Shown here in pieces: positions 14,812 through 45,683 of a stretch of DNA of 64,000 nucleotides. Source of the DNA: Streptomonospora nanhaiensis (GTDB lineage: Bacteria > Actinomycetota > Actinomycetes > Streptosporangiales > Streptosporangiaceae); contig NZ_JACCFO010000001.1 of NCBI RefSeq assembly GCF_013410565.1, positions 2,480,001 to 2,544,000 of the forward strand. The letters run 5' to 3'. The translations under genes and the position numbers were made by a program. The notes beneath the pieces were generated by a model. The model searched no databases. It had not been told where the DNA came from and was given only the letters and a program-made list of their open reading frames with translations. The stretch's first letter is position 1. Each line of letters begins with the position of its first letter.

Positions 14812-15104
14812 GCGGCCTGCCCGCGCCGGGCGGCGCGGCGTCGGCTCCGGATGCGCTCGCGTTCGTGGGCGGTGGTGCCGCCCCACACCCCGCGCGGGGC
14901 GTCGGGCCCGCTCAGCGCCAGGGCCGCCTCCAGGCACTCGGAGCGCACGGGGCAGCGGGCGCAGACGCGCTTGGCCCAGGCGATGACGGGGCCGCGCTCA
15001 GGCTCGGGGAACCACAGGTCCTGTTCGGTGGGGATCTGCGCGCACAGCGCGCTGCCCATCCAGGACGGGGCCGCGCTCGGGGTCAGGTCCAGCGACGAGG
15101 TCAT
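14808..15104 (-). CDS. WhiB-family iron-sulfur transcription factor
   Basis: A 98-residue Wbl protein. Seen: four cysteines (ALCAQ, then VCARCPVRSEC) that would hold a 4Fe-4S cluster, the turn RGVWGGTT and an arginine-rich C-terminal tail for DNA contact. Wbl proteins act with the principal sigma factor. Here it lies inside the element's replication operon between the beta-clamp paralogue and the TGT-like gene, so it may tie element gene expression to host development or redox state. The start is ATG 15104, with GAGAGGAG upstream. Confidence 0.92.
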   Translation of the reverse strand: MTSSLDLTPSAAPSWMGSALCAQIPTEQDLWFPEPERGPVIAWAKRVCARCPVRSECLEAALALSGPDAPRGVWGGTTAHERERIRSRRRAARRGQAA

Positions 15105-30096: not shown

Positions 30097-30139
30097 CTCC
30101 GGAGCCGTGTGCGCAGGTTCGAATCCTGCAGGGGGCACC
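30097..30139 (+). repeat. attR (43-bp direct repeat)
   Basis: Exact copy of 9123-9165, representing the 3' end of tRNA-Arg without its 5' half. Marks the right end of the element. Confidence 0.93.
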
Positions 30140-30198: not shown

Positions 30199-30760
30199 GT
30201 GCGCCCGCTGCCGGCGGCCGCCGAGGGTGTCGCCGCCGCGCCGACGGGGGGCGTGGTGTCCGGGCCGCCTTCGCGGTCCGTCCGCTCGGCCGGGGCCGGC
30301 CGCGCCGGCCGGCGGACACCGCGCCGCGCCGTTTCGCCCTCTCGCAGCAATTCACCTGCGGCGACGCCGATCATTTCCGCGTGGAATCGGAAAGGGAGGC
30401 AAACCGGTTTGGGGTGCGGCGGTCCGGCCGTGCCCGGCCGGTTCCGGCCGGACCTCCGGCGGCTTCAAGATCGTTTATGCGCACGGTTGGCCTATCGTGG
30501 CCAAACCCGGACCCGGGCGAACCGGGGGCACCGGTCCCCGCGTCTGAGGTGCGCTGCCGAAAAGACCAGCCCACCAGCGGTTTCATTTGCCCTCCAGGAG
30601 CGGACTCACAGCCGGAAATGATCATTGGAGAAGGGCGTCTCTCCGTCATGACCTGCGAAAACCGACCCTTTAAAAAAATTGATCAAGCTAGTAGCCTCTG
30701 CGGTGCGCTCGCGGCCCGGCTCCTCCAAGGCGCCCGGTCGTGCTGGAGAAAGAGGAAGGC
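30199..30760 (+). other. Intergenic region upstream of the coupling-protein gene
   Basis: About 560 bases without a convincing gene. It contains the perfect inverted repeat TTGGCC-TATCGT-GGCCAA at 30487-30504, a possible operator, and an A/T-rich stretch around 30670-30690. No promoter is clear. Confidence 0.4.
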
Positions 30761-32500
30761 ATGACTAACGCAGATCCGGGGCGCCCACGCGACGACGAGT
30801 CCTGGGAACTCTTCTTCATGGGTCTGTTCGTCTTCCTGGTGATCTTGGCGGTGTGGGGTTCCGGGGCGATCGGCGAGGTCGCGCGCGGTGAGGAGTTTCC
30901 GCCCAACCCGCTTTTCTACCTCGTCGACCTCGTTCTCGGCGAACGGGATTGGCCGGGGGCGGTTTCGACGGTTTCCCTGGTCCTGATAACCGCCGGCCTG
31001 GCCGCGGGCGGATTCGCCGGTATCCGGGTGTTCGCGCGCCGCACCCGGAAGCACAAGGTCGACCGCATGGCCCGGCACCTGTCCACTCCCGAGGACCTCG
31101 CGGCGCTGAGCCCCAAGGGCGTGGCGGCCTCGGCCGCCCGGCTCCGCAAGATGGGCATCAGTTCCGATCCCTCCGACCACGGCATTTACCTCGGCAATAC
31201 CGTGCCGCACGGAATTCCGCTGCGCAGCAGCTGGGAGGACACCTTCCTGATGATCGCGGGGCCGCGGCGGTTCAAGTCCTCCGCCTACGTCATCCCCGCG
31301 ATCATCGACGCCCCCGGGCCGGTCGTGGCCACGAGCAACAAGCGCGACGTGCACGACGCCACCCGCGGGGTCCGCGCGAAGGTCGGCCGCTGCTGGGTGT
31401 TCGACCCCCAGGGGGTCGCCGACCAGGAGCCGGAGTTCTGGTTCAACCCGCTGCGCGCGATCAAGGGGACCCGGGAGGCGGCCACGCTGGTCACCCACTT
31501 CGTGACCAGCACCCGCCCGGTCAACACCCAGCTGCACCACTTCGACCTCGAAGGCGACAACCTGCTGGCCTACCTGTTCCTGACCGCCGCGCGGTCGGGC
31601 TCCACGCTGCGCGACGTGTACCGCTGGCTGGCCCAGCGCAGCACCGAGCCCCTGGAACTGCTGCTGGAGAAGTCCTCCGAGGACGACCTGGTGTCGATGA
31701 AGCTGGAGACGCTCATCCAGTTCCCCGAGCAGTGGCGCGAGGGCATCTACGGCTCGGCCATGAAGCTGCTGCGGTGCCTGGAGGACCCCCGCGTGCTGCG
31801 CTGGGTGACCCCGCCGCGCTCGGGCGACCTCCCCGAGTTCGACCCCGAGGCGTTCATCAGCAGCCGCGACACGCTGTACATGCTCAGCATGGAGGGCGAG
31901 GGCAGCGCGTCGCCGCTGGTCGCCGCGCTGACCCACGACACGCTGGAGGCCGCCGTCCACAAGTCGGTGAACCTGCCCGGCGGCCGCCTGGACCCCCCGC
32001 TGCTGGCGGAGCTGGACGAGGCCGCGAACGTGTGCCGCATCCAGGAGCTGCCCAACCTCTACAGCCACTTCGGGTCGCGGGGCGCGGTCGTGCGCACGCA
32101 CCTGCAGAGCTGGTCCCAGGGCGTGGAGGTGTGGGGCGAACCCGGAATGCGCAAGCTCTGGGACTCCTCGAACATCCGCGTCTACGGCGGCGGCGTGGCC
32201 GACGCCGGTTTCCTCGGAGAACTGTCGGAGGTGATCGGGAATTACGACCGGGTTTTCTATTCGTCCAGCATCAGCAAGGACGGTCTGATCGATTCGGGCC
32301 GCCGCCAGCGGTCGACCCAGATCCAAAAGGAGAAGACCCTGGACGTGGCCACGCTGAGCGCCCTTCCACGGGGCCGCGCGGTCGTGGTACCGTCTGGCGC
32401 CCCTGCCACCGTTGTCGAACCGGTGCAGTGGTTCAAGGGTCCGCACGCAGAGGATATCAAGGCGAGTCTTCGCCGTTATGACCCCGCCGGGGGCGAATGA
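30761..32500 (+). CDS. VirD4/TraG-like coupling protein with degenerate Walker A
   Basis: 579 residues. Two transmembrane helices (about residues 10-35, MGLFVFLVILAVWGSGAI, and 66-90, TVSLVLITAGLAAGGFAGI), then an ATPase domain. The P-loop position reads IAGPRRFKSSAY (about 166-176) instead of GxxxxGKT/S, so ATP hydrolysis is doubtful. The C-terminal LDEAANVCRIQELPNLYSHF and LQSWSQ segments are typical of T4SS coupling proteins. No mating-pair genes are nearby. The start is ATG 30761, with GAGGAAGG upstream. Lying directly outside attR, it may be a remnant of an older element or belong to the following cluster. Confidence 0.8.
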   Translation: MTNADPGRPRDDESWELFFMGLFVFLVILAVWGSGAIGEVARGEEFPPNPLFYLVDLVLGERDWPGAVSTVSLVLITAGLAAGGFAGIRVFARRTRKHKVDRMARHLSTPEDLAALSPKGVAASAARLRKMGISSDPSDHGIYLGNTVPHGIPLRSSWEDTFLMIAGPRRFKSSAYVIPAIIDAPGPVVATSNKRDVHDATRGVRAKVGRCWVFDPQGVADQEPEFWFNPLRAIKGTREAATLVTHFVTSTRPVNTQLHHFDLEGDNLLAYLFLTAARSGSTLRDVYRWLAQRSTEPLELLLEKSSEDDLVSMKLETLIQFPEQWREGIYGSAMKLLRCLEDPRVLRWVTPPRSGDLPEFDPEAFISSRDTLYMLSMEGEGSASPLVAALTHDTLEAAVHKSVNLPGGRLDPPLLAELDEAANVCRIQELPNLYSHFGSRGAVVRTHLQSWSQGVEVWGEPGMRKLWDSSNIRVYGGGVADAGFLGELSEVIGNYDRVFYSSSISKDGLIDSGRRQRSTQIQKEKTLDVATLSALPRGRAVVVPSGAPATVVEPVQWFKGPHAEDIKASLRRYDPAGGE

Positions 32501-32576
32501 GCACGCGCCTTTCGCACCGCCCCGCGAGTCAGCCTGAGAACGTCGTTTGCCCCATCCGCTGCCCTTAAGGAGAAAC

Positions 32577-33461
32577 TTGAGCGAGGGAACGGCAATTCGG
32601 CCTGTCAAGGTCCTCGAATCCGACGACGGCACCCTGAAGTACCTCTGGCAGCTCTCCGACGGCCAGACCGTGGAGAGCGTCTATCTTCCGTTGATGAACC
32701 GCGGGGCCGCCGGCCCGTCGATGTGCATTTCCAGCCAGGTGGGCTGCGCGGTGCGCTGCACCTTCTGCGCGACCGGAAAGAACGGCCTGCTGCGCAACCT
32801 CACCACCGAGGAGATCACCGGCCAGGTCCACCAGACCCTCGCCGGACTCGACGCCCTTCCCCGCTCGTTCGACGTGTCGTTTATGGGTATGGGCGAGCCG
32901 CTGCACAACCTGCCCCGGGTGCGGGAGGCGTGCGAGGCGCTGCTCGGCGCCTACGGGGATCAGTGCGACGTCCACTTCAGCCTGTCGAGCATCGGAATCG
33001 CGCGGAAGATCTACCAGCTCGCGGAGTTCGGCATCCCGGTCCAGCTGCAGATCTCGCTGCACGGCACCACCGACGAGGTCCGGGAGCGGCTCATCCCGAC
33101 CAAGTCGCACACGGCCATCGACGAACTCTTTGTCGCGCTGCGCCACTACGCCGACGTCAAGAACACCGTCGTCAACATCAACTACCTGCTGTTCGACGGT
33201 GTGAACGACTCCCCCGAGGCCGCCGGGCAGCTGGCCGCCATGATCTCCGGCGACCCCCGCTTCCGGGTCAAGCTCTCCCACTACAACCCGGTGGAGGGCA
33301 CCGGTCTGCGGCCGGTCGACGACGCCACGATCCAGGCGTTCGCCGAGCTGTGCCGGGGCCACGGGCTGCCCACCTACGTCTGGGAGAGCATCGGGACCGA
33401 CGTCGGGGGCGGCTGCGGGCAGCTGCGCTCCTCCGAAGAGGCCGCCGGAAGAACCAACTAG
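32577..33461 (+). CDS. RlmN/Cfr-type radical SAM 23S rRNA methyltransferase paralogue
   Basis: 294 residues. Seen: radical SAM cluster CAVRCTFC (Cys57, 61 and 64), the upstream Cys50 in MCISSQVG, and the mechanistic C-terminal Cys280 in GGGCGQL, so the full RlmN chemistry (methyl transfer to C2 or C8 of an adenine) is supported. It is shorter than housekeeping RlmN by about 60-80 N-terminal residues. The start is TTG 32577, with AAGGAG six bases upstream. First gene of a tight plus-strand cluster; a resistance role by 23S rRNA modification is plausible but unproven. Confidence 0.88.
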   Translation: MSEGTAIRPVKVLESDDGTLKYLWQLSDGQTVESVYLPLMNRGAAGPSMCISSQVGCAVRCTFCATGKNGLLRNLTTEEITGQVHQTLAGLDALPRSFDVSFMGMGEPLHNLPRVREACEALLGAYGDQCDVHFSLSSIGIARKIYQLAEFGIPVQLQISLHGTTDEVRERLIPTKSHTAIDELFVALRHYADVKNTVVNINYLLFDGVNDSPEAAGQLAAMISGDPRFRVKLSHYNPVEGTGLRPVDDATIQAFAELCRGHGLPTYVWESIGTDVGGGCGQLRSSEEAAGRTN

Positions 33462-33474
33462 CGGGAGCCGACCG

Positions 33475-34584
33475 GTGAACACGTCGTCCGCGGGCGGCGC
33501 GCTGCGCGTCGTCCACCTTCCCGCCCGAACCCCCTACGTCCGCAAGCTGCGCGCGGCGGGCTTTCGCACCGTCAACGGCACCGACGCCGCCGGCGCGGTG
33601 GTCCCCGTCGACGTCAGCGCCGCCTGGCTGCTCGACCACCGCCCCTTCACCTGGTTCGACGTCCTGCACCTGCACCACATCGAGTTCGAGGACCCCGCCG
33701 ACCTGGAGCGGCTGCTGGACGCGTGCGGCGCGGCCCGGACCAGGGTGGTGTGCACCGCGCACGACCTGCGGGCGATGTTCGGCGACGACAGCGGCCTCCA
33801 CAAGCGGCTGCGGGTGGTCGACGCCGCGGGCGCGGCGTGGATCTGCCTGACCCGGGGCTCCCGGACGGAGCTGGGCGGCATCCTGGGGCGCGAGGTCGAG
33901 GCGGCGGTGATCCCCCACGGGTACGTCGTGGACCCCGACTCGCTCGGGGCGGGCCCGCCGCCCCGGGCGAACCCGGCGCCGCGGTTCCTGCTGTACGGCT
34001 CCATGCGCGCCAACCGCGACCAGCTCGCCGCGCTGCTCAACTGGAGCCTGTCCACCACCGACCCCGACAGCCGGCTGGAGCTGCTGGTGCGCGGGTTGAG
34101 TCCCGTGGAGCTGCGCGCCTCCGACGGCGTCGTCCTCCGCCTGCTCGACGCCGCCCGCGCCGACCGCCGCGTCATCACGACGATGCGGCCCTACCCCACC
34201 GACCGGGAGGTGGTGGAGGCCGCCCTGGCGGCGGACGCGCTGCTGCTGCCCTACCTGTGGGCGACCCACTCCGGGCAGCTGGAGCTGGCCTTCGACCTGG
34301 GCATGCTGGCCGTCGCCTCCTCGGTGGGGCACCTGCCCGAGCAGGCGGAACGGCACCGGGGCCTGGTCGCCGAACCCGAGTGGTTCGACTGGACGAACGG
34401 CAACCCCTACACGTTCGGCGAGCGCTTCGTCGCCGCCCTGGACCGAGCACACCAGCGCGTCGCCGCGGGCTCCGCGGCCGCGCGGTCCGATGAACCACGC
34501 CCCCTGAACCGGGACTTCATCGACTACCGACGCACCGAGCACCAGCAGATCCTCGCTGCCCACCAGCGCGTCTACAGTGATTAG
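33475..34584 (+). CDS. Glycosyltransferase, GT4-like
   Basis: 369 residues. Seen: N-terminal Rossmann start LRVVHLPARTPYVRKLRAAG, HLHHIEFEDPADLERLLDAC, then CTAHDLRAMFGDDSG, and a second half with RFLLYGSMRANRDQL and the sugar-nucleotide side LLLPYLWATHSGQLELAFD. The classical EX7E motif is poorly kept (SGQLELAFDLGM). It would attach a sugar to a product of the cluster. GTG 33475 has GGGAG upstream. Seven cluster genes follow in the same direction. Confidence 0.78.
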   Translation: MNTSSAGGALRVVHLPARTPYVRKLRAAGFRTVNGTDAAGAVVPVDVSAAWLLDHRPFTWFDVLHLHHIEFEDPADLERLLDACGAARTRVVCTAHDLRAMFGDDSGLHKRLRVVDAAGAAWICLTRGSRTELGGILGREVEAAVIPHGYVVDPDSLGAGPPPRANPAPRFLLYGSMRANRDQLAALLNWSLSTTDPDSRLELLVRGLSPVELRASDGVVLRLLDAARADRRVITTMRPYPTDREVVEAALAADALLLPYLWATHSGQLELAFDLGMLAVASSVGHLPEQAERHRGLVAEPEWFDWTNGNPYTFGERFVAALDRAHQRVAAGSAAARSDEPRPLNRDFIDYRRTEHQQILAAHQRVYSD

Positions 34585-34606
34585 TTCCAAAGGGGGATCG
34601 TCGCCG

Positions 34607-35755
34607 TTGAGTCCCGACACACAGAAACTCGCGTCGCCAGTTCCGGGCCGCAGCAGGGGTGCGGAGGGGCGCGGCGCACCGGCCGCCCGGCCGCACGACC
34701 TCCCCGCACCCATCCGCTCGGTGCTGCGCCGGATATCCGTGGGCGATGACGTGCGCCCAGCCGAACTCGGGGCGGCCTGCGACGCCATCCGCGACCTGCC
34801 GGCTCCCACCCGGGACGTGGTCTTCGGCTCGATCCTGACCGCCGTGACCGTGCGCGGCCCGGTCGCCGACGAGGTGGAGGCGCTGCTGCGCAGCGCGCTG
34901 GCGATGGACGCGCGGGCACCCCAGGAGCACGTCGGCGGCGAGGGGCCCCACCCGGTGCTGCTGCTGGCCGGCAGCGGCAAGAAGGGGTTCCGCACGCCCA
35001 ACATCTCCACCCCCGCGGCGCTGGTCGCCGCGGCCGTGGGCGCCCGCGTGATCAAGGTGGGCTCGGCGGCGACCTCCTCGGCGCTGGGCTCGCGCGACCT
35101 CGTCCGCGCGCTCGGGCTGCGCGAGGCGCGGACGGCGGACGAGGTGCGCGCCGACATGGCCGCCCGCCGGTTCGCCTTCGTCGCGGTGGAGCCGGAGATC
35201 CCCGCCCTGGACAGCGTCTACGGCGGCCGGTTCCACGCGCCCAACCCCTTCTCCTTCGGGCTCGCGCCGCTGGCCAGCCCGGTGCGCGGCGACGTCACCG
35301 TGTTCGGCCTGGCCCACCCGCGCGTGGACGTCGCCGCCGAGGTGCTGCGGCGCTTCGGCATGGGCGAGGTGGAGGTGGTGAGCACGCGGCTGCCCAGCGG
35401 CCACTACCTGGACGAGATCGGCCTGGCGGGCGACCTGCACGCCTGCGCGGTGCGCGGCGGCGCCGCCGGCCCGGTGGAGGTCCGCGCGCTGGGGACGGAG
35501 GTCGCCGTCGGCGCGGTCGAGGCGGCCCCCGCCGCGCCGTGCGGTCCGGCCGAGGCCGCCGACCGCACCGCCGAACTGCTGGCCGGCGGCGGCCTGGAGG
35601 GCCACCGGGCCCTGGTCGCGGTCAACAGCGCCTTCCTGCTGGTGCGCGCCGGCCTGGCGGACACGCTGGTGGAGGGGCGGGAGCTGGCCGAGGACGCGCT
35701 GCGCAGCGGCAGCGTCCTCAAGAGCGAGGCGTTCGCCGCCACGGGAGGGGTGTGA
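34607..35755 (+). CDS. TrpD/nucleoside-phosphorylase-II-type phosphoribosyltransferase
   Basis: About 382 residues, related to anthranilate phosphoribosyltransferase. Seen: LLLAGSGKKGFRTPNISTPA at the PRPP-binding GTGGD/NxST position (here GSGKKG) and ARVIKVGSAATSSALGSRDL at the KHGN..SS..GS.D position, both with unusual residues, so the acceptor is probably not anthranilate. In butirosin biosynthesis a TrpD-like enzyme (BtrL) ribosylates an aminoglycoside with PRPP. A comparable transfer to a cluster product is my inference. TTG 34607 is favoured by AGGGGG upstream; GTG 34577 is possible. Confidence 0.72.
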   Translation: MSPDTQKLASPVPGRSRGAEGRGAPAARPHDLPAPIRSVLRRISVGDDVRPAELGAACDAIRDLPAPTRDVVFGSILTAVTVRGPVADEVEALLRSALAMDARAPQEHVGGEGPHPVLLLAGSGKKGFRTPNISTPAALVAAAVGARVIKVGSAATSSALGSRDLVRALGLREARTADEVRADMAARRFAFVAVEPEIPALDSVYGGRFHAPNPFSFGLAPLASPVRGDVTVFGLAHPRVDVAAEVLRRFGMGEVEVVSTRLPSGHYLDEIGLAGDLHACAVRGGAAGPVEVRALGTEVAVGAVEAAPAAPCGPAEAADRTAELLAGGGLEGHRALVAVNSAFLLVRAGLADTLVEGRELAEDALRSGSVLKSEAFAATGGV

Positions 35756-36477
35756 CCGCCGTGGCATCCGACACGCTCGACCCCGGTCTGCACTGCCTGC
35801 GCGCCGGCTACACCCAGCGGGTGCCGCCGGAGTACTTCGTGGACGCCGACGACGACGGCGTCACCTGGCAGCCCGACGTCTACCCCCTGGTGCTCGACCT
35901 GGCGCGCGAGCACGGCCGCACGGCCGTCATCGACCTCGGGTGCGGGCGGGCGGGCAAGCTCGCGGCCCTGGGCGAGCAGGACCCCGGGCTGGAGCTGGTG
36001 GGGGTGGACTACGGCCCCAACATCGCGTGGTGCCGGGAGAACCTGCCGCGGGGCCGGTGGGTGGAGGCCGACCTGGAGACCGCCGCGGCGCTGCCGATCA
36101 GCCCCGGAACGGCCGCCCGCTCGGTGGTGGTGTGCTCCGACGTGCTGGAGCACCTGGTCGACCCCCGCCCGGCGATGCGGCTGATCTGCCGGCTGCTGGA
36201 CCAGGGCGCCGCGTGCGCGGTGGTCTCGACGCCCGCGCGCGACCTGCGGGCGGGCACCGCGCACCCGGGCCCGCCGCGCAACCCCTCCCACGTGCGGGAG
36301 TGGGCCCAGGACGAGTTCCGCGCGTTCCTCGGCGGGTTCCCGGTGGCGGTGGAGCGGGCCGGGCTGACCCGCAGCGACGACCGCGACGGCGGGCTGACCA
36401 CCCAGCTCGTCGTCCTGGGCCCGGCCGCGCCGGGCGCGGCGGCCGGAGCCCGCGGCACGGAAGCGCGCGCCCGGTGA
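35752..36477 (+). CDS. SAM-dependent methyltransferase (class I)
   Basis: 241 residues. Seen: motif I VIDLGCGRAGKLAALG, acidic LVGVDYGPN, and VVCSDVLEHLVDPRPAMRLI of motifs II/III. It probably methylates a sugar or other hydroxyl of the cluster product. The GTG start overlaps the stop of the phosphoribosyltransferase gene, and GGGAGGGG serves as ribosome site. Substrate unknown. Confidence 0.85.
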   Translation: MTAVASDTLDPGLHCLRAGYTQRVPPEYFVDADDDGVTWQPDVYPLVLDLAREHGRTAVIDLGCGRAGKLAALGEQDPGLELVGVDYGPNIAWCRENLPRGRWVEADLETAAALPISPGTAARSVVVCSDVLEHLVDPRPAMRLICRLLDQGAACAVVSTPARDLRAGTAHPGPPRNPSHVREWAQDEFRAFLGGFPVAVERAGLTRSDDRDGGLTTQLVVLGPAAPGAAAGARGTEARAR

Positions 36478-36550
36478 GGGCCGCCCGCCGCACGCCGGAC
36501 CGGGCGTGCCGCCCGCCGCGCGCGCCCCGCGTCCCCCGGGGGTACCGGCC

Positions 36551-37354
36551 GTGGCCCCGGTGACGCCGCCGCCCTCGGTCTCGGTCGTCCTGCTCAACCA
36601 CGACTACGGGCGCTACGTGGGCGAGGCGCTGGCCAGCGCCGTGGGGCAGGAGCCGGGCGGCTACCGCCTGGACGAGGTCGTGGTGGTGGACGACGGCTCC
36701 ACCGACGGCAGCCGCGAGGTCTACGCGCGCTTCCCCGGGGTGCGCGTGGTCGAGAAGGCCCACGAGGGCTTCGCGGCCACGCTCACCCGGGCGGTACGCG
36801 AGGCGTCGGGGCGGTGGTTCGTGCCGCTGGACGCCGACGACGCCTTCACCCCGGACAAGCTGCGCACCCTGGCGCCGCACATGGCAGACCCCGACCTGCT
36901 GTTCATCCAGCACGCCGAGCACGTGGTTGACGCCCGGGGCGAGCCGTTCGGGCCGGGGCTGCACCCCGGCGGCGCGACCAGCACGCTGGCCGTGCGCGCC
37001 GACGCCGCGCGCGACCTGCTCCCCGTGACCAACGAGCTGTTCTTCCACGTGCTGGCCGACGTGGGCCGCGGCCGGGTGCTGCCGGCCCCGCTGACCCGCT
37101 ACCGGGTGCACGAGCAGAGCATGACCGACCGCCGGACCCCCGGGGTCTTCACCGACTACATGGCCGGCGTGTGCGCCGAGGTGGCCGCCCGCCTGGACGA
37201 GCTCAGCGCGCGCCCGCCGGCGTGGGCGGGCGCCGACCGGCTCGCCGGGCTGGCGGCCGACTACCGGCGCCGCGCCGCCGAGCACCGCGAGGAGGCCCGC
37301 CGCCGGCGCGAGCGGGCCGCGGCAGCCGCCGGCCGGGAAGGAAGATCGCCATGA
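36551..37354 (+). CDS. Family 2 glycosyltransferase
   Basis: 267 residues. Seen: GT-A start SVSVVLLNHDYGRYVGEALA, nucleotide motif VVVDDGSTDGSREV, DAD metal motif VPLDADDAFTP, and a catalytic region IQHAEHVVDA. The C-terminal 60 residues form an Arg/Glu-rich coiled stretch (RRRAAEHREEARRRRERAA). The stop overlaps the start of the next gene (ATGA). GTG 36551 or GTG 36506 could be the start. Confidence 0.85.
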   Translation: MAPVTPPPSVSVVLLNHDYGRYVGEALASAVGQEPGGYRLDEVVVVDDGSTDGSREVYARFPGVRVVEKAHEGFAATLTRAVREASGRWFVPLDADDAFTPDKLRTLAPHMADPDLLFIQHAEHVVDARGEPFGPGLHPGGATSTLAVRADAARDLLPVTNELFFHVLADVGRGRVLPAPLTRYRVHEQSMTDRRTPGVFTDYMAGVCAEVAARLDELSARPPAWAGADRLAGLAADYRRRAAEHREEARRRRERAAAAAGREGRSP

Positions 37355-38382
37355 CCGAAGCCGTGCTGTTCTCCGAGTCCTACTACCGGAGGGTTCTCGA
37401 CCAGTTCGGCTACGCGCCGTTCGACCTGTGGCAGTTCGACTTCGCGATGGCCGGGCTGGACGCCGACACCCTCAACGCCCGCTACCTGTGCCACCACCAC
37501 GGCGAGCGGTTCGTGGACGCGCCCGCGGCGCGGCGGGTGGTCACCACCGGGTTCGGGATGTCGGGCGTGCCGCACCTGGCGACCGTGTCCCACATCCTGA
37601 AGATGGTGGAGCTGCAGCGCGGCGGCGAGCGCTGCCAGATCGTGCTCGGCGACCTCGACGCCTACAACGGCAAGGCCAAGCCCTACGGCGAGGTGCGCGA
37701 CCTGGCCGAGCGGTTCCGGGAGTACAGCCTGCGGCTGGGGTTCGACGACACCGCCGGGACCGTGCGCCGGCAGGAGGGCTACCTGCCCGCGCTGGAGGTG
37801 ATGTACCTGCTGGGACGCTACGTCGCCCAGGACGACTTCGACGCCGCCGAGGAGGACAACCACGCCTACTTCGCGGCCCGCGGGCTGGTCGACGCCACCA
37901 TGACCTTCCGCCGCTCCCTCGCCCTGTCGCTGATGACCGCCGACTTCCTGGCGCTGGGCCAGGACAACGACGCGGTGCTGGTGCTGCTGGGCGTGGACGA
38001 GCACCGCTACGTGCGCTTCGCCCAGCAGACGCGGGAGCGGCTGGACGCGCACGTGCCGCTGCGGTCGGACTTCACCCTCAGCGCGGTCTACACCCGGATG
38101 GTGCGGGGGTTCGGCGGGCACCCCAAGTTCAGCAAGAGCATCCCCGGCTCGGCCATCGACGTCACCACCCCGCCGGGTGAGGTGCGCCGCCTGCTGATGG
38201 CCGAGCCGCCGGTGCCGGAGGAGTCGGCCACCTACCAGCTCATGTGCCAGATCCCCCGCTACGACGCCGCCACCCTGCTGGACCTGCACGTCCGCTGCCG
38301 GGAGAACGGCGAGGCGTGGCGGCGGGCGGTGGCGGAGTTCGCCGAGTACATGGTCGAGCTGATCGGCCGGTGGCCGCGGTGA
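37351..38382 (+). CDS. Tryptophanyl-tRNA-synthetase-like protein
   Basis: 343 residues of a class Ic synthetase fold. Seen: GFGMSGVPHLATVSHILKM where the HIGH region should be (reading PHLAT), LGDLDAYNGKA, and GHPKFSKSIPGSAI at the KMSKS position (about residues 257-268). The signature residues are altered from canonical KMSKS, so charging of tRNA-Trp is uncertain; a resistance copy or an amino-acid-activating biosynthetic enzyme are alternatives. The start is ATG 37351 with GGAAGG upstream. Followed by a TyrRS gene. Confidence 0.75.
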   Translation: MTEAVLFSESYYRRVLDQFGYAPFDLWQFDFAMAGLDADTLNARYLCHHHGERFVDAPAARRVVTTGFGMSGVPHLATVSHILKMVELQRGGERCQIVLGDLDAYNGKAKPYGEVRDLAERFREYSLRLGFDDTAGTVRRQEGYLPALEVMYLLGRYVAQDDFDAAEEDNHAYFAARGLVDATMTFRRSLALSLMTADFLALGQDNDAVLVLLGVDEHRYVRFAQQTRERLDAHVPLRSDFTLSAVYTRMVRGFGGHPKFSKSIPGSAIDVTTPPGEVRRLLMAEPPVPEESATYQLMCQIPRYDAATLLDLHVRCRENGEAWRRAVAEFAEYMVELIGRWPR

Positions 38383-38449
38383 CGCGAGCGTCCGCCGACC
38401 GCGCGGCCACTACGATGGAGTGGTCCGACCTCGAAATCCGGAGAGCTTG

Positions 38450-39847
38450 ATGACCCGACTGAGCCAGTCCGTTGACCAGGCCGCGGCCTTGTTGGCGGAC
38501 GCTGACCTCGCCGCCGACGCCGTTGTGCGCGATCTGCTGGCCGAGACCACCCGGCGCCGCAGCCTGGACCTGTCGGACCTGTCTCCCGACGAGCAGGCGG
38601 CGCTGATCGCCGCCCGCGTGCAGCAGCTCCAGCCCTCCGCCGACGCGCTGGTCGAGCGCATCGTCGAGGCCGGCAAGGAGGACCGCCCCTTCGTCGCCAA
38701 GTTCGGCATCGACCCCACCGGGGCCGAGGTCCACCTGGGCCACGCCGTGCCGATGCTGCTGCTCAGCCGCTTCCAGCGGATGGGCCACAAGGTGGTGTTC
38801 ATCGTCGGCGACGTCACCGCCAAGATCGGCGACCCCTCCGGGCGCACCGAGGAGCGCCCGCCGCTGACCGACGACGACATCGCCCGCAACCTCGCCACCT
38901 ACCGCGAGCAGGTCAGCCCGTTCTTCGACTTCGAGCACGCCGACTTCCGCCACAACGGCGACTGGCTGCGGCAGGTCTCGCTGCCGCGCATCATCGAGAT
39001 CACCGCGCAGATCCCGGTGTCGATGCCGCTGCAGCGCGAGGACTTCCGCACCCGCCTGGAGAGCGGCCAGGGCCTGTCGATGGCCGAGCTGCTGTACTCG
39101 GTGGTGATGGCGCTGGACTCGGTCGAGACCGCGTGCGACATCGAGGTCGGCGGCATCGACCAGTTCCTCAACATGCAGATGGGCCGCAAGGTCATGAGCA
39201 TCTGCGGCCAGACCCCCGAACTCGTGGTCGCCACCTCGCTGATCGAGGGCACCGACGGCTCCGGCGCCAAGATGAGCAAGTCGAAGGGCAACTACGTGGC
39301 GCTGACCGCGCCGCCCGGCGAGATCTTCGGCAAGCTCATGTCGGTGCCCGACCGCCTGGTGGAGCCCTACTTCCGCGCGCTGTCGGAGTGGGTCGACCCC
39401 GAGCTCGACATCGTGCGCCGGCGGGTCGAGCAGGGCTCGCTGCACCCGATGGACCTGAAGAAGATCCTGGCCGGCGAGGTCACCGCGGCCATCCACGGCG
39501 TCGACGCCGCCATGCGGGCGCGCGAGGAGTTCGTCGCCCGCTTCTCCACCCGCTCCTTCGCCGACATCGAGGACCTGCCCGAGGTCACCGACCTCAGCAG
39601 GCCGGTGGTCGAGGTCGTCAAGGGCCTGGGCTTCGCGCAGAGCAACGGCGACGTCCGCCGGGTGGCCCAGCAGAACGGCCTGCGCCTGGTGGTGGAGGGC
39701 CCCGACGGCCAGCGCCAGACCACCCTGGACGCCGACGACGCCCGCCAGCCCCTGGCCGCCGTGGTCAAGGAGAAGCTGGGCGACCCCGCCGACGGCCTCT
39801 ACCTCAAGGTGGGGCGCAAGCTGGCGCGGGTCGTCCTGCCCGCGTGA
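38450..39847 (+). CDS. tyrS: Tyrosyl-tRNA synthetase, TyrZ-type second copy
   Basis: 465 residues. Seen: FGIDPTGAEVHLGHAVPMLL with the HIGH motif HLGH (about residues 95-98), IVGDVTAKIGDPSGRT, the tyrosine-binding YSVVMALDSVE region, KMSKS in SGAKMSKSKGNY (about 274-278), and a C-terminal S4-like domain (LYLKVGRKLARVVLP). Catalytic residues look complete. This subtype differs from the usual actinobacterial TyrRS, so it is likely an extra, possibly resistant, copy. The next gene overlaps its stop by GTGA. Confidence 0.88.
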   Translation: MTRLSQSVDQAAALLADADLAADAVVRDLLAETTRRRSLDLSDLSPDEQAALIAARVQQLQPSADALVERIVEAGKEDRPFVAKFGIDPTGAEVHLGHAVPMLLLSRFQRMGHKVVFIVGDVTAKIGDPSGRTEERPPLTDDDIARNLATYREQVSPFFDFEHADFRHNGDWLRQVSLPRIIEITAQIPVSMPLQREDFRTRLESGQGLSMAELLYSVVMALDSVETACDIEVGGIDQFLNMQMGRKVMSICGQTPELVVATSLIEGTDGSGAKMSKSKGNYVALTAPPGEIFGKLMSVPDRLVEPYFRALSEWVDPELDIVRRRVEQGSLHPMDLKKILAGEVTAAIHGVDAAMRAREEFVARFSTRSFADIEDLPEVTDLSRPVVEVVKGLGFAQSNGDVRRVAQQNGLRLVVEGPDGQRQTTLDADDARQPLAAVVKEKLGDPADGLYLKVGRKLARVVLPA

Positions 39848-40536
39848 CGGCGGCAGGCGCGGTCGTCTTCGACCTGTTCGGCACCCTCGTGGCCGCGCCC
39901 ACCGCCCGGGAGCGCGCCCGCGCGGCGGCCCGGCTGGCCGGGGCGGCCGGATGCGCCCCCGCACGCGTCGAGCACTACCTCACCGGCACCTGGCGGCCGC
40001 GCCACGACGGCACCCTGCCCGGGCTGGACGCCCTCGCCGCGCACCTGGCCGCCGCCGTCGGGGCGCCGGAATCGGCGGTCGCGCCGGTGGCGGCGGAGCT
40101 GCGCGCCCTGGGCGAGGAGCGGATCCGCCCGGACCCGCCGGTCAGGGCCGCGCTGGAGGCGCTGCGCGGCCGGGGGGTGGCGGTCGGGGTGCTCAGCGAC
40201 GCCGCCGCCGAGGTCGCCGCGGCGTGGCCGCGCGGCCCGCTCAGTGCGCTGGCCGACGCCGCGGTGTTCAGCTGCGAGGCCGGCGCCGTCAAGCCCGACC
40301 CGCTGCTCTACCGCCGGATCGGCGCCGCCCTGGGCGTCCCGGCGCACCGCACCCTGTACGTGGGCGACGGCGGCGGCGACGAACTGCGCGGCGCGCTGGC
40401 GGCGGGGATGACCCCGGTGGCCGTGCGCCGCCGGGGCGGTGCCGCCCTGGTGTTCGGCGAGACCCCGTGGCCGGGCCCGGTGCTGCCCGGAGTCGAGGAC
40501 GTACCCGCCCGCCTCGCGGAGCTGATGCCGGCATGA
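39844..40536 (+). CDS. HAD-family hydrolase
   Basis: 230 residues. Seen: motif I VVFDLFGTLV (nucleophile Asp10), motif II VGVLSDAAAEV, motif III lysine in CEAGAVKPDPLLY, motif IV VGDGGGDELRGALAAG. The usual second Asp of DxD phosphatases is Phe here (DLFGT), so it may be a dehalogenase-like or non-classical member, and phosphatase activity is not assured. GTG 39844 overlaps the TyrRS stop. If it dephosphorylates, a phosphoribosylated product is the obvious substrate. Confidence 0.8.
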   Translation: MTAAGAVVFDLFGTLVAAPTARERARAAARLAGAAGCAPARVEHYLTGTWRPRHDGTLPGLDALAAHLAAAVGAPESAVAPVAAELRALGEERIRPDPPVRAALEALRGRGVAVGVLSDAAAEVAAAWPRGPLSALADAAVFSCEAGAVKPDPLLYRRIGAALGVPAHRTLYVGDGGGDELRGALAAGMTPVAVRRRGGAALVFGETPWPGPVLPGVEDVPARLAELMPA

Positions 40537-40579
40537 GAAGTCCGAGAGGACCGGAGGAACCGGGAGGTCCGGGAGGGCC

Positions 40580-41566
40580 ATGAGGGCGTGGGAGGTCCGC
40601 GCGGGCGCGCTCGGCCTGCACGACGACGAGGCCGCGCGGCCGGGTGCGGGCGAGGTGGCGCTCCGGGTCACCCACACCGGTGTCTGCGGGAGCGACACCG
40701 CCAAGCTGCTGCGGCCTGCGGACTTCGCGCTGCCGGAGCCCTGGCGGCCCGGCCACGAGGTCGTGGGCACCACGCCCGCGGGCGAGGCCGCCGCCGTCGA
40801 TCCGCTCGTGCCGTGCGCGCGGCCCGACCGGTGCGACCGGTGCGCCGCCGGCGACACCCACCTGTGCCCGGACCTGCGCCGCCTGGGCTGGGACCTGCCG
40901 GGCGGGTTCGCCGAGCGGGTGGCCGTGCCCGCGTCCGCCCTGCACCCGCTCCCCCGCGGCGTGGACCCGCTGCACGCCGTGCTCGCCGACCCGGCGGCGG
41001 TGGCGGTCCACGGCCTGCGCTGCTCCCCGGTGGGCCCGCCCGGGCGCCTGGCCGTGGTCGGCGCCGGACCGGTGGGCCTGCTCACCGCCCTGTACGCGCA
41101 CCGGCTGGGATGGCGGACCACGGTCGTCCACCGCGACGGGCGCGCGCCCGGCCCCGCCCTGGCGGCGGTGCTGCCGGCGGCCCTCCGCCCGCGCTCGGCC
41201 GCGCGGGAGGGCGCGTTCGACGCCGTCGTGGACGCGGCCAGCGGCGGCGACGCCGCCCCGCTGGAGACCGCGATCGCCCTGGTCCGCGACGGCGGCACGG
41301 TGGTCGTCCAGAACGCCTACGCCCCCGGGGTGGCCCTGCCCACGCCGCTCCGCGACCTCTTCCGCCGCTCGATCCGCCTGGTCGGCTCCTTCTCCCACTG
41401 CCGCCGCGGCCCCGGCGACTTCCCCCTGGCCCTGTCCCTCCTCGCCGATGCCCCCGAGGCAGCCCGCCACCTGGTAACCCCGGCCGGCCCCCTCGACGCC
41501 CTCCCCACCGCACTCACCCGCTCCGGCCCCCGCACCACCCGCCAGGCACTGGTCCTGCCGGAGTAG
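40580..41566 (+). CDS. Zinc-dependent MDR alcohol dehydrogenase
   Basis: 328 residues of the threonine-dehydrogenase/sorbitol-dehydrogenase-like MDR class. Seen: catalytic zinc ligands in TGVCGSDTAKLL and PGHEVVG, structural-zinc cysteines in CARPDRCDRCAAGDTHLC, and the Rossmann motif VVGAGPVGLLTALY. Oxidises a secondary alcohol, presumably on a sugar or cyclitol of the cluster. The start is ATG 40580, preceded by a short G-rich imperfect repeat with several GGAGG sites. Last gene of the plus-strand cluster; it converges on the minus-strand operon. Confidence 0.85.
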   Translation: MRAWEVRAGALGLHDDEAARPGAGEVALRVTHTGVCGSDTAKLLRPADFALPEPWRPGHEVVGTTPAGEAAAVDPLVPCARPDRCDRCAAGDTHLCPDLRRLGWDLPGGFAERVAVPASALHPLPRGVDPLHAVLADPAAVAVHGLRCSPVGPPGRLAVVGAGPVGLLTALYAHRLGWRTTVVHRDGRAPGPALAAVLPAALRPRSAAREGAFDAVVDAASGGDAAPLETAIALVRDGGTVVVQNAYAPGVALPTPLRDLFRRSIRLVGSFSHCRRGPGDFPLALSLLADAPEAARHLVTPAGPLDALPTALTRSGPRTTRQALVLPE

Positions 41567-41610
41567 GCCTCCGCTGGGGCCGAGCGCGCGGCAGAGGGCG
41601 GGCGGGGTCT

Positions 41611-43019
41611 CTAGCGGGTGGGTCTGGGGTTCTTGCTCAGGTTGACGCGCTGCGGGGTGCGGTCGTTGTGAGGGCGGGGGCTCCGGGCGGTGGGGGGCAG
41701 GTGGAGGGGGCGGGCGTCGAGGGGGCGGCCGCCGCGGTGGGCGCGGGCGGCGGCCTCGCCCAACGAGACGAACGTGAGGCGTTCGTCGGCGGCCAGGGTC
41801 AGCCCGGTCCCGGTGGTCCGGCCGCCCACCAGGCTCGGCAGGTGGTGGACCAGGGTCCAGCCCACCTGCTCCACGATGCTCATGCCGTCCGGTGAGGTCG
41901 TCTGGCCCCGGCCGGAGAGTCCGGCCTCGTCGGCGAACCGCTGGAGCCGGGACCAGACCGGGCGCACCGCGTCGGCGACGAGCGCCGGGAACCGCTCGGA
42001 GGCGCGGGCGGGGCAGGGGCCGGAGCGGCCGCCGGTGTACCGCCAGGAGTCGCTGTCCGCCTCGGGAGCCGGGCCCTTGGGGAACAGCAGCAGGTCCACG
42101 ACAGGCAATCCCTTGTCCCAGGACTCGATTCGCGAGAAGAACCCGGAGCGGAAGTCCTGCCCCTGGTCCGTCCGCCAGCGCCGCACGTACTCGGCGAGCC
42201 CTTCCTCGCCGCGCGTCTGGAGCATGTAGTGGTACACGCCGCTGCCGCGCGAGGGAACACCGTTCAGCACGCCGACCACCGACAGCCCGCCCAGCCCGCG
42301 CATGGTGGCGGCGCCGCGGATCACGCGGACGTTGTTGAGGACCGCCAGGGCGAGGTCGCCCGCGCCCGCCACCTTGCGGGCGCCCGGAGTCTCCCGGACC
42401 TCCGGCGCCGTCATGCGCCCCCAGGGGCCCGCCAGCTGCTCCATCGCGAAGAGGGTGTTGTAGGACTGCTGGCGCACCATCGAGACGAGGGTGTCCCGCA
42501 CCAGCCGCTCGCCGCCGGGGGCGCGGTAGCGCCCCATCTCCACCATCACGGGGTGGTAGAGGTGCCGGGGATCGGCGATCGAGACGCCCCGTCCCTCCCA
42601 GTTGAAGAGGACCTCGGTGAGCGCCGCGTCGAAGACGCCGTTGACGGTCCGCAGGAACCGCTCCTGGTCCGGCCGGAGGGGGTAAACGGGGATTCCCTCG
42701 CCCTGCGGGACGTGCAGATGCATCCGCTTGGCGAAGATGTCGGTGCAGTCGGCCGTCCGGATGGGCTCCGTCCGGGGCAGCCGCCCCTGGCCGGTGCCGT
42801 CCATGCGGCCCACCGTGTGCACCATCGCCCGCAGGTAGACCAGCTCCACCAGGATCGTCGACAGCGTCGAGAAGACCGCCCCGCGCCGGCGCTCGTCGCC
42901 GTCGAGCGCCGCCACCGCCCGCCGCGCGGGCTCCGCCGCCAGCAGCTCCCCGATCCGCCCCGGCTCGTGCCGGGCCCCTCGACAGCCTTGATCAGCGACA
43001 CCACGCCTTTCGGCGGCAT
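41611..43019 (-). CDS. Unrecognised protein, frameshifted near its start
   Basis: About 469 residues if one missing base is restored. The start ATG 43019 gives MPPKGVVSLIKAVEG; after a GGGG run (plus-strand C run 42975-42978) the reading must change frame to continue ARHEPGRIGELLAAEPARRA, which then runs to 41611. Adding one G joins both parts. The rest contains FNWEGRGVSIADPRHLYHPV, GLGGLSVVGVLNGVPSRGSG and DLLLFPKGP. I recognise no family. Downstream partner of the GT4 gene, so perhaps a glycosylation-associated protein. The break may be a sequencing error. Confidence 0.6.
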
Positions 43020-43117: not shown

Positions 43118-44587
43118 TCAGTACCCCGCGCCGCGCCCGCCGCGCCTCTTCGGCCCCGGGGTGGGGCCCTGCGCCCGAGGGCGCAGGGCCCCACCCCGGG
43201 ATGCCCCGCGCCGCAGTGGCACGTCCAGACGCGCCTGCGCCCGCGCGTGTTCGGCCTCGACGCGCTCGGTGGCGATGAGGAGCCTGCCGTCGGCGCCCTG
43301 GCGGGTGTGGCGGGGCAGGCCCGGGTCCCGGTCCACGGGCAGGAGGCCCGCGTGGACCAGGGCCGATGCGGAGTGGGTCCAGACGAACCGCTGCCCCACC
43401 AGCCGCAGCCGCTCGGCACCCGCCCACCGTTCGGCGCGTTCGCGGACCGCCGCCAAGATCGCCTCGGCCCAGGCCGCCACGCGCGCGTTGGCGTCCAGGC
43501 CGTCGTCCATGACGACCGCGTTGCGGCCGAGTTCCCGCGGGACGTCGGGGTGGTGGAGCAGCAGATGGGCGATCCCGCTGTCCTGGTTGACCAGCCCGGC
43601 GACGCCGCGCTCCAGCGGCTCCACGGCGACCAGGCCGTACCCCTCGTGCAGCGAGGGCATGACGCACAGGTCGGCCTGCCGCATCTCGGCGTCCAGTTCG
43701 GCCACGTCGGAGGTGAACGGCAGGAGCGTGACCGCCCCCGCCTCACCCATGATCCGGTCCACCCGGCGCTGCTCGATCCGCAGGTTCTCCTCCTGGGAGA
43801 GCGTGTCGGTGCCGCGCACGCCCCGGCAGCGGACGACGACGTTCACCCCCTGCGCGCGCAGCCGGCGGACGGCCTCGAAGAGCTGGTCCATGCCCTTGAT
43901 GGGGTCGTCCAGGCGCCCGATGGTGTAGATGGTGAACGGGCGGTCCCCGGACGGGGGTGCGGTGCCCGGCAGCGTCTGGAACCCCGGGATGAGTTCGTGC
44001 GAGCGCAGGTGCCGGGGCCCGGGCACCACGGTCCGCGCCATCCGCAGGCCCTCGTCGGTGAGCGGCCGGCCCACGCCCCACACGACGTCCCTGTCGTCCA
44101 TCCGGTTCATGATCCACCGGTGGCGATCGGCCTCCTGCCGGCCGAGCGCCTCCTCGCCGATGAGCCGCCGGTACTTCTCGGCGGCGGTGTGCACGCCGTG
44201 CGCGTAGCGCGCCTGGGGGTACCACTCCTCCCGGACGCGGATCGCCGCCTCGCCCAGGAACTCGTTGTGGCTGACGATCAGGTCGAAGGCGCCGGGGTCG
44301 CGCGGCAGGCCGACGTCGTCCGGCGTCAGGTGCAGTGCCAGCCGGGGGAAGTCCGCCATGGCGATCCGCTCCGGATCGACGGTGACGACGCGCACGCCGG
44401 GGTGCTCGTGCGGCGGGGCCGACATCAGTAGGGTGACGTCGAAGTCGCGGGCCAGGGCGTTGGTCAGGTGCTCGTTGAACACCGACACCCCGCCGCCGAT
44501 GGGGTGGCGGCCGCTGACGTAGGCGACCATCAGCACCCGGGGCGTCCGCTCCCACGACGGTGGCGGCAGGGCCTCGTCAGCGGCCAT
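43118..44587 (-). CDS. GT4-family glycosyltransferase
   Basis: 489 residues, GT-B fold. Seen: N-terminal VLMVAYVSGRHPIGGGVSVF, VSHNEFLGEAAI, TIYTIGRLDDPIKGMDQLFE at the start of the nucleotide-sugar domain, and SLHEGYGLVAVEPLERG, an EX7E-type motif. Donor and acceptor are unknown. The last 30 residues (GGALRPRAQGPTPGPKRRGG) are encoded by a perfect 22-bp inverted repeat (43155-43200), so the C-terminus may be artificial. The start overlaps the end of the 45.7-kb gene. Confidence 0.82.
   Translation of the reverse strand: MAADEALPPPSWERTPRVLMVAYVSGRHPIGGGVSVFNEHLTNALARDFDVTLLMSAPPHEHPGVRVVTVDPERIAMADFPRLALHLTPDDVGLPRDPGAFDLIVSHNEFLGEAAIRVREEWYPQARYAHGVHTAAEKYRRLIGEEALGRQEADRHRWIMNRMDDRDVVWGVGRPLTDEGLRMARTVVPGPRHLRSHELIPGFQTLPGTAPPSGDRPFTIYTIGRLDDPIKGMDQLFEAVRRLRAQGVNVVVRCRGVRGTDTLSQEENLRIEQRRVDRIMGEAGAVTLLPFTSDVAELDAEMRQADLCVMPSLHEGYGLVAVEPLERGVAGLVNQDSGIAHLLLHHPDVPRELGRNAVVMDDGLDANARVAAWAEAILAAVRERAERWAGAERLRLVGQRFVWTHSASALVHAGLLPVDRDPGLPRHTRQGADGRLLIATERVEAEHARAQARLDVPLRRGASRGGALRPRAQGPTPGPKRRGGRGAGY
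43155..43200. repeat. Perfect 22-bp inverted repeat, 2-base loop
   Basis: Positions 43155-43176 and 43179-43200 are exact reverse complements with only GA between. Lies inside the 3' end of the GT4 reading frame. It would make a very strong hairpin in either strand. Confidence 0.8.
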
Positions 44588-45683
44588 CGGACGCCCCCTT
44601 GAGGCGGCTGGTCAGCAGGGTGACCACGGTGTGGGACGCGGCGTGCAGGCGGTGCGGTGGGGCCATGGCGGGGTGGAGGCGGGCGGCCAGTTCGTCCAGG
44701 AGGTCGGCGCGGACCAGGGCGCCGGCGTGGGAGAGCACGGTCCAGTCGCGGTCCGGCACCTCCTCCGGTGGCGGGAGGTAGTCCTCGGGGGCCGCGGGCG
44801 CGGGCGTGTCCGCGAGGTCGGCGGTGATCTCGGCGGCGCGCTGGGCGAAGCCCAGCGGGCCGCCTCCGGTGTCCGTCCACCGGTAGCCGTAGGCCATGTG
44901 CCGCGCGGGGTCGATGCCCTCGTGGCGCTCGCGCCACTCGGGGACCGGCTCCTCGGCGGCGGCGCGCAGGACGTCGCGGGCGGCGGCGGGCACCTCCGGT
45001 GCCAGCGAGAGGTCCATCCCGCCGGTCACCGATTCGGCGGCGCGGCGGGCGGCCCCGCGCAGCCGCTCGTAGGCGGCGGGCAGGTCGGGCCGCTCGGCGA
45101 GGGGCCGCGACGGCGCGGGCGCCGGCATGGCCTCAGCCGGGTGCGGGGTGGCCGGGGTGCCGGTGACCGGGCGGCGCAGCGCGTCCGCCAGCTCGTGCAG
45201 GCGGGCGGACAGCGGTGCCGCCTCGGGGCTGAGGCCGGCGACCGGCCGTCCGGGGGCCAGCCGGTGGGCCAGCTCGTCCAGCAGGTCGCGGACCGTGGAG
45301 TACCAGCGGTCGGCGAGGACCACGGCGCGGTCGGGGGCGACGGCGGTACCCGAGGGCGCGGTGTCGCGGACGACCAGCGTTCCCGGGTCGGCGTCCAGGC
45401 GCTCCTCCCACGCGCCCACCGCCGCAGCGAAGCCCAGCGGGCGCCCGCCGTCCGCCGCCCACCGGGACAGCAGGTGGCGCGCCGGGTCGGGTGCCGGGCC
45501 GGGCGGTCCGACGTCGGATCCGGGGTCCTCGGCCAGCACCCGCTCCAGGTCGCGCCACGCCCGCGCGCGCTCGGCCGGCCATCCCGAGCCCTGCCACGCG
45601 GGCTCCCCCTGGGCCCACAGCATGCGCGCGGCGAGCGAGTACAGCCGCTCGAACCGTTCGCCCAGTCCCTCTCCCACGGCCAT
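44577..45683 (-). CDS. Protein with two tandem copies of one domain, unknown
   Basis: 368 residues. The first half has PDPARHLLSRWAADGGRPLG followed by DRWYSTVRDLLDELAHRLAP; the second half has IDPARHMAYGYRWTDTGGGP followed by GALVRADLLDELAARLHPAM. The two halves are clearly related, pointing to internal duplication. No known family. It overlaps the GT4 start, so the three minus-strand genes form one operon. The start is ATG 45683. Confidence 0.7.
   Translation of the reverse strand: MAVGEGLGERFERLYSLAARMLWAQGEPAWQGSGWPAERARAWRDLERVLAEDPGSDVGPPGPAPDPARHLLSRWAADGGRPLGFAAAVGAWEERLDADPGTLVVRDTAPSGTAVAPDRAVVLADRWYSTVRDLLDELAHRLAPGRPVAGLSPEAAPLSARLHELADALRRPVTGTPATPHPAEAMPAPAPSRPLAERPDLPAAYERLRGAARRAAESVTGGMDLSLAPEVPAAARDVLRAAAEEPVPEWRERHEGIDPARHMAYGYRWTDTGGGPLGFAQRAAEITADLADTPAPAAPEDYLPPPEEVPDRDWTVLSHAGALVRADLLDELAARLHPAMAPPHRLHAASHTVVTLLTSRLKGASDGR

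Follow-up and report, generated by a model that had tools for sequence, protein, structure and literature searches.

Gene content of the locus

The stretch of Streptomonospora nanhaiensis DNA analysed here (64,000 bases; hereafter the window) contains at positions 32577-41566 a cluster of nine closely spaced open reading frames (ORFs), all on the + strand, whose products include a tyrosyl-tRNA synthetase (TyrRS), designated TyrS, and a second, divergent synthetase homologue, designated WRSl. In gene order the junctions measure 13, -8, -4, 28, -4, 67, -4 and 43 bases (negative values are overlaps), in keeping with the preliminary description of nine co-directional genes that mostly overlap or lie a few bases apart. 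Seven of the nine genes pass a plain filter on guanine-plus-cytosine content by codon position, which misses the methyltransferase and HAD genes as over-long upstream starts were taken for them; a codon-usage script calls all nine, a partly circular result given that the same nine are in its training set. Independent support for the reality of the genes is provided by their conservation in other genera and by ratios of nonsynonymous to synonymous substitution of 0.12-0.48 (21 comparisons, seven genes). No Rfam family reached its gathering score within the cluster, and a scan of 32400-41700 found neither promoter nor terminator.

Families were assigned with Pfam and NCBIfam, and for one glycosyltransferase from its predicted structure. 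The first gene (32577..33461) encodes a 294-residue radical S-adenosylmethionine (SAM) protein of the RlmN/Cfr group, an accessory member of the cluster. Its sequence includes CxxxCxxC, lacks the N-terminal ~70 residues of RlmN (the match begins at profile position 72) and scores under the RlmN cut-off (TIGR00048, 229.7 bits versus 290). The core gene GT1 (33475..34584) follows; its product has no Pfam match above cut-off, and its predicted model (mean confidence, pLDDT, 81.2) has the GT-B fold of a GT4-type glycosyltransferase, with BshA, GlgM, SenB and MshA among the best structural matches. Next is a core TrpD-like phosphoribosyltransferase homologue (34577..35755; PF00591, E value 6.6e-26), also under the curated cut-off for its family (TIGR01245, 128.7 bits versus 199.05), in which the glycine loop GTGGDG is altered to GSGKKG and the DE pair is retained (alignment A3). 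A SAM-dependent class I methyltransferase (MT; 35752..36477; PF08241, E value 5.3e-9) and a family-2 (GT-A) glycosyltransferase (GT2; 36506..37354; PF00535, E value 1.1e-22) are core in the main form of the cluster. The core protein WRSl (37351..38382; 343 residues; PF00579, E value 3.9e-13) is a divergent class Ic synthetase homologue resembling archaeal-type tryptophanyl-tRNA synthetase (TrpRS) and TyrRS, and TyrS (38450..39847), the proposed immunity copy, is a full TyrRS of the 6bqy/1h3e type (TIGR00234, alignment A2 and PDB search). The start of the gene for a core HAD-type phosphatase (39844..40536; PF00702, E value 3.8e-15) overlaps the end of TyrS by 4 bases, and the last core gene encodes a Zn-dependent medium-chain dehydrogenase (ADH; 40580..41566; PF08240, E value 8.3e-14; alignment A5) whose relatives are polyol and threonine dehydrogenases. 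The families first proposed for these genes hold with some qualification: the RlmN-group and TrpD-like proteins score under their cut-offs, WRSl is divergent, and one of the two glycosyltransferases is recognised by fold only.

Recurrence of the cluster in other genomes

A WRSl scan of an 84,980-species collection, which reaches close relatives only, returned 10 loci; samples of 394 genomes of the class and 200 of the family held three and two genomes with WRSl, respectively, the window's genome being in both. With L064, a duplicate of L013, counted once, the total is 13 WRSl loci in 12 genomes, which belong to several families of actinobacteria. The hosts are Amycolatopsis, Saccharopolyspora (two genomes), Actinophytocola, Kutzneria, another member of the Pseudonocardiaceae, Frankia, a member of the Micromonosporaceae, a contig (L008) whose record names Melainabacteria but whose proteins look actinobacterial, the genomes G249 and G543, and the window's genome. 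The claim of an unassigned, conserved and horizontally moving cluster with a constant core is borne out by these loci. WRSl was unmatched in a plasmid search of 72,556 records.

Eight genes recur as a unit, usually in the order TrpD-MT-GT1-GT2-WRSl-TyrS-HAD-ADH; in the window GT1 precedes TrpD. The MT homologues at the cluster loci show 61-75% identity. An intact TyrS ORF lies beside WRSl at 11 of the 13 loci and is missing at L009 and L063. Four loci (window, L005, L006 and L012) have all eight ORFs at full length, and one gene is disrupted at each of three others (GT2 in L007, TrpD in L010, HAD in L011). L008 and L014 end at contig ends, L014 also having a truncated ADH; L013 has a short MT and neither GT2 nor HAD; L009 is without HAD, has truncated GT1, GT2 and ADH, and retains TyrS as a 26-residue fragment; and at L063, on a contig 8,046 bases long, GT1 is the only other core gene beside a WRSl that carries a frameshift. 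The divergent L062 has the order HAD-ADH-TrpD-radical SAM-WRSl-GT1-TyrS, and MT and GT2 were not found in it. Distances between loci correlate for TyrS and WRSl (r 0.87 for 36 pairs from nine loci without L062; r 0.97 with it), as well as for ADH and WRSl (r 0.83) and ADH and TyrS (r 0.77, both without L062); at most 10 of the 13 loci enter these figures, L009, L014 and L063 being left out.

Several details of the arrangement were also recorded. At the Saccharopolyspora loci GT1 has moved upstream of TrpD and is reversed (L006 5125-6231, L007 5692-6801), and the GT1 proteins fall into two subtypes, 41-43% and 51-58% identical to that of the window. Amycolatopsis rhizosphaerae has two diverged copies of the cluster, L005 and L010, each with its own TyrS and with WRSl 78-80% identical to the window's. 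In L062, a gene for a radical SAM protein of 298 residues (8950-9846) precedes WRSl, and a complete seryl-tRNA synthetase gene (13823-15112) directly follows TyrS.

The RlmN-type gene was found at only two of the 13 WRSl loci, the window and the Kutzneria locus L014, whose homologue (64% identical) is the only one among the loci; L008 and L014, as noted, are cut short by contig ends. A whole-genome search of 13 genomes, with G009, G010, G012 and G543 left out, found a homologue of the cluster gene in one of the 12 genomes other than the window's. The window's genome itself encodes another RlmN-type protein, with 37% identity to the first. The gene was therefore rejected as a core part, and the earlier suggestion of self-protection by RlmN-like methylation is not supported as a core function.

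Chromosomal position

Homologues of two genes on the left side of the tRNA-Arg gene, 6947-8434 and 8585-8956, lie near one of 41611-42915 in the congener G003, with two unrelated genes between, and WRSl was not found in the five congeners searched; the simplest reading is thus that the cluster is an insertion in the window's genome. An integrative element occupies the tRNA-Arg(CCG) gene (9092-9165), with an integrase (9371-10759), an FtsK-type transfer protein (17675-19903) and a 43-base attachment (att) core at 9123-9165 that is repeated at 30097-30139. The cluster lies outside the att repeat, to its right, and was rejected as cargo of the element integrated at 9123-30139. Within the element (9092-30139) is an APH-family gene (27803-28489).

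Between the att repeat and the cluster is an orphan VirD4/TraG-like gene (30740-32500), beside which no other secretion gene was recognised. It was rejected as part of the cluster since tblastn did not find it at the ten loci of the collection scan; homologues in stretches from three congeners are 33-36% identical. Beyond the cluster, a GT4-conflict glycosyltransferase gene (PF20706) adjoins a gene without a Pfam match (44577-45683; the pair spans 43118-45683), and the two also occur together in the congener G005 (L069 5242-7807) at 36-38% identity.

TyrS and the loss of the standard TyrRS

TyrS scores 241.2 bits against the curated TyrRS profile (TIGR00234, cut-off 113.8) and retains HLGH and KMSKS. 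A PF00579 search of the window's genome yields three genes, namely TyrS, WRSl and one TrpRS; a congener TyrRS used as query finds TyrS (30% identity) and otherwise one match at E value 0.08, so that no second TyrRS is found. By contrast, a standard TyrRS, 27-30% identical to TyrS, is present in all five congeners searched. In G004 its gene immediately precedes an rRNA operon, whose 16S, 23S and 5S genes were confirmed with Rfam. The syntenic interval in the window's genome, from the conserved upstream block to the rRNA operon, measures 780 bases as against ~2,195 and is followed by the 16S gene; tblastn finds no trace of a TyrRS in it, the best E value anywhere in a 3.5-kb stretch being 0.37. 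TyrS has replaced the ancestral TyrRS in this genome. In the preliminary description, a genome with no TyrRS but this one would have refuted the proposal; TyrS is literally the only TyrRS found, but the reason is the loss of the ancestral gene and not that TyrS is a housekeeping gene without a link to its neighbours.

Among the 12 WRSl hosts (G543 being outside this tally), a standard TyrRS is kept in seven (G007, G008, G009, G010, G012, G014 and G249) and a third type of TyrRS occurs in G013 (L027), so that eight of the 12 have another resident TyrRS. No other TyrRS was found in the draft genome G011, and a single partial match to the standard enzyme at a contig edge in G006 was not counted as present. 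TyrS of the window is 81% identical to that of the Saccharopolyspora locus L006, whereas the standard TyrRS of that genome and that of a congener of the window are only 56% identical; TyrS has therefore been transferred horizontally.

If TyrS is protective, it should be dispensable only where the pathway is broken or the target changed. TyrS is present at all four loci that have the other seven core ORFs at full length (window, L005, L006 and L012), and pathway genes are broken as well at L009 and L063, the two loci without it; these are few loci, their states depend in part on ancestry, and draft-sequence errors may account for some of the breaks. The proposal that this TyrRS behaves as an immunity gene is supported.

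The TyrS subfamily also occurs outside the cluster. A TyrS profile search of the 394 class genomes gave 20 matches at E value 4.2e-189 or better. Seventeen of these 20 genomes are without WRSl, and 16 are also without an adjoining GT1 or GT2, some contigs ending close by. With the standard enzyme as query, no other TyrRS was found in 11 of the 13 WRSl-less genomes tested (G273, G369, G404 and G298 being the four left out), among them G313 and G329, which are 88% and 81% complete; the remaining two keep the standard TyrRS. Eight of the 17 belong to one genus, f18, which we take to be Streptomyces from the gene order; the neighbours there are fabI/fabG-like and moaA-like by sequence. The TyrS-type enzyme is the only TyrRS found in all five f18 genomes tested, and it looks like a housekeeping enzyme. 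In group f19, TyrS of G148 adjoins GT1 (86% identical to that of L062) and GT2 (47% identical to the window's), and neither WRSl nor a standard TyrRS was found there; in G116, where the standard TyrRS is still present, a radical-SAM fragment (42% identity over 133 residues) precedes TyrS. No remnant of the cluster was seen at the seven f17 loci as far as the retrieved sequence reaches, which at some loci is not far. One f17 locus, L093, nests in the cluster clade beside L005 (support 96/91) in a midpoint-rooted tree built without the L027 outgroup, in which 10 of 25 inner branches are drawn open and much of the region around L093 is poorly resolved. Genomes of this kind may have been the source of the cluster's TyrS, or the f17 genes may be relics of the cluster.

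The synthetase homologue WRSl

At the thresholds used, WRSl matches only tryptophan/tyrosine (W/Y)-type synthetases in Pfam, NCBIfam and the PDB. Its profile A6 (10 rows, including the divergent L062 and the frameshifted L063) has the Aeropyrum pernix TrpRS 3a04 as its best PDB match (E value 3.4e-11 over 274 positions) and also matches archaeal TyrRS; the narrower profile A1 matches the archaeal TyrRS 7ckg (E value 3.8e-4) and 3a04 (E value 7.2e-4). The equivalent of the HIGH motif (H-x-A/G-T) is HLAT, with HMGT in L063 and HAGT in L062, and that of KMSKS (K-F/M-SK) is KFSKS, with KMSKS in L062 and KMSKR in L063. The first His, Asp216 and K-x-SK are kept; in the G-x-DQ stretch the Asp residue is retained and the Gln is replaced by Glu, so that DQ reads DE. 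Judging from lengths, the tail after KFSKS has about 80 residues and is shorter than that of 3a04. Because the ATP-site motifs are kept in variant form and this tail is short, an ATP-using ligase is favoured over a tRNA-charging enzyme on sequence grounds.

WRSl was rejected as a resistant TrpRS: it misses the curated TrpRS scores by far (NF008925, 37.3 bits versus 451; TIGR00233, 23.7 versus 176.75), and its signature DQ is DE. Its initial reading as a second protected target is not supported, as the window's genome keeps the ordinary TrpRS (84-88% identity to its counterparts in G001, G003 and G005); WRSl itself looks biosynthetic. A ligase derived from cysteinyl-tRNA synthetase (CysRS), as is MshC, does not agree with matches confined to W/Y-type enzymes, and the likeness is one of role only. 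Cyclodipeptide synthases have the TyrRS/TrpRS fold and are not known to carry HIGH, KMSKS or ATP-site motifs; WRSl has H-x-A/G-T and K-F/M-SK and is not of this kind.

Proposed function

On balance, and by a modest degree, we think it probable that this mobile cluster directs the synthesis of a small aminoacylated glycoside or nucleoside-like inhibitor of the standard actinobacterial TyrRS, and that TyrS is the insensitive, immune copy. The TrpD-like protein, GT1 and GT2 would build a glycosylated scaffold, from which the HAD phosphatase would take off a phosphate and on which the Zn-dehydrogenase would oxidise a hydroxyl. WRSl would activate a candidate amino acid with ATP and join it to the scaffold in the manner of MshC, and MT might cap the compound. 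Alternatively, WRSl could use Tyr-tRNA as the donor of the residue, much as Ala-tRNA serves AcmF in the making of ascamycin.

Several points weigh against this proposal. Both the product and the inhibition of TyrRS are predictions, and the AlphaFold2 model of WRSl (pLDDT 41.5) was not used. The eight core genes include neither a transporter nor a regulator, and no other flanking gene family, as far as the partial annotation of flanking genes goes, occurs in more than three of the 10 loci compared. The broken state of L063 depends on one frameshift in a draft contig. TyrS is retained at the decayed loci L013, L100 and L101, so that the correspondence between TyrS and an intact pathway does not run both ways; such survival is permitted by immunity and is not predicted by immunity alone. 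Since 17 of the 394 class genomes carry TyrS without WRSl, and no other TyrRS turned up in 11 of the 13 tested, the subfamily by itself is no marker of an antibiotic. Finally, TyrS could instead supply Tyr-tRNA.

This last possibility, in which TyrS is biosynthetic and gives Tyr-tRNA (or tyrosyl-adenylate) to WRSl as a tRNA-dependent transferase, immunity being absent or secondary, has precedents: AcmD of the ascamycin producer both supplies Ala-tRNA and resists the product, and the TyrRS/TrpRS fold of cyclodipeptide synthases can act as a transferase. We nevertheless regard it as unlikely, in that Tyr-tRNA is available from any resident TyrRS, which leaves a dedicated, horizontally moving one unneeded, and WRSl retains the ATP-site motifs that AcmF has mostly lost. 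It is more doubtful still that the cluster modifies tRNA or another macromolecule, decorating RNA, protein or wall with a sugar or an amino acid, while the RlmN-type protein and the synthetase homologues act on tRNA-Tyr. The adjoining RNA-type families (the RlmN group and two synthetase homologues) and the lack of a core transporter would suit such a role, but the RlmN-type gene was found at two of 13 loci, the Rfam search gave no family, and the distribution of the cluster is sporadic and decaying. PADLOC returned one weak methyltransferase match only, which argues against this role and on which anti-phage defence was likewise rejected. That TyrS is an ordinary housekeeping gene placed here by chance seems very improbable: its being the sole TyrRS found in this genome, and that of its subfamily in most WRSl-less genomes tested, would fit, but TyrS accompanies WRSl at 11 of 13 loci in several families, eight of the 12 hosts have another resident TyrRS, TyrS overlaps the HAD gene, and the ancestral TyrRS is missing from its syntenic place.

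Relation to known systems

SB-219383 is a natural inhibitor of bacterial TyrRS from an actinomycete; nothing found here supports it as the product of this cluster, and a link would be speculation. O-ribosylation by the TrpD-like BtrL is known from butirosin, a precedent on which we do not rely. A literature search limited to openly licensed PMC papers matched the cluster to no published pathway and found no gene cluster with an immune TyrRS. No description of the cluster, the inferred TyrRS target, the WRSl family or the takeover of an essential gene was seen in that literature.

The nearest parallel is ascamycin, whose synthetase is an alanyl-tRNA synthetase (AlaRS), a class II enzyme. The acm cluster of Streptomyces sp. 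80H647 has the resistant AlaRS AcmD together with AcmF, a truncated synthetase-like aminoacyl transferase acting on the scaffold (PMC12945691). It differs in the AlaRS family, in the nucleoside sulfamate product, and in AcmF, which has lost the greater part of its ATP-binding residues and takes alanine from Ala-tRNA; WRSl is of the W/Y type with ATP-site motifs kept. Mycothiol is not known as an inhibitor, and no immunity gene is known for it. Its biosynthesis is nonetheless alike in pairing a GT4 glycosyltransferase, MshA, with a synthetase relative, MshC, by which an amino acid is coupled to the amine of a sugar (PMC9437257). MshC, however, is a CysRS relative that joins cysteine, and the GT4 structural matches of GT1, which include MshA as well as BshA of bacillithiol biosynthesis, are broad.

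Agrocin 84 of Agrobacterium is comparable in its mobile agn cluster, where an immune leucyl-tRNA synthetase (LeuRS), AgnB2, stands together with AgnA, a homologue of a synthetase that is truncated and taken as biosynthetic (PMC4392301, PMC7916415). Other synthetases and another chemistry are involved there, and AgnB2 is an additional, non-essential LeuRS, whereas the window's genome is without an ordinary TyrRS. The producers of albomycin, mupirocin, indolmycin and borrelidin likewise have a distantly related, self-immune second synthetase according to PMC7916415 and PMC9437257, for other amino acids. TyrS resembles such enzymes as a distant extra synthetase copy linked to biosynthetic genes at 11 of 13 loci; second synthetases that are insensitive to an antibiotic are said to have ~30% identity (PMC9437257), with which the 27-30% between TyrS and the standard TyrRS agrees. 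Horizontal spread of a drug-insensitive synthetase is described for IleRS2 (PMC4861432).

Significance

If the proposal is true, the cluster would offer a genetic handle on a family of natural inhibitors of TyrRS, a target without an assigned gene cluster in the literature found, and would include a tRNA-synthetase relative proposed to link an amino acid and a sugar. It would also make traceable the displacement of an essential translation gene by an immunity gene, through related genomes in which the cluster is intact, decayed or residual. A further reading, which we put forward tentatively and consider unlikely, is that the cluster is a chemical addiction element, in which an intracellular TyrRS poison is paired with an antidote TyrRS, so that the host TyrRS becomes dispensable and is lost and TyrS becomes essential and outlives the cluster. 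If this happened repeatedly in several lineages, it would offer selfish antibiotic-immunity genes a way to replace core translation genes, perhaps including the TyrRS of the Streptomyces-like genus f18.

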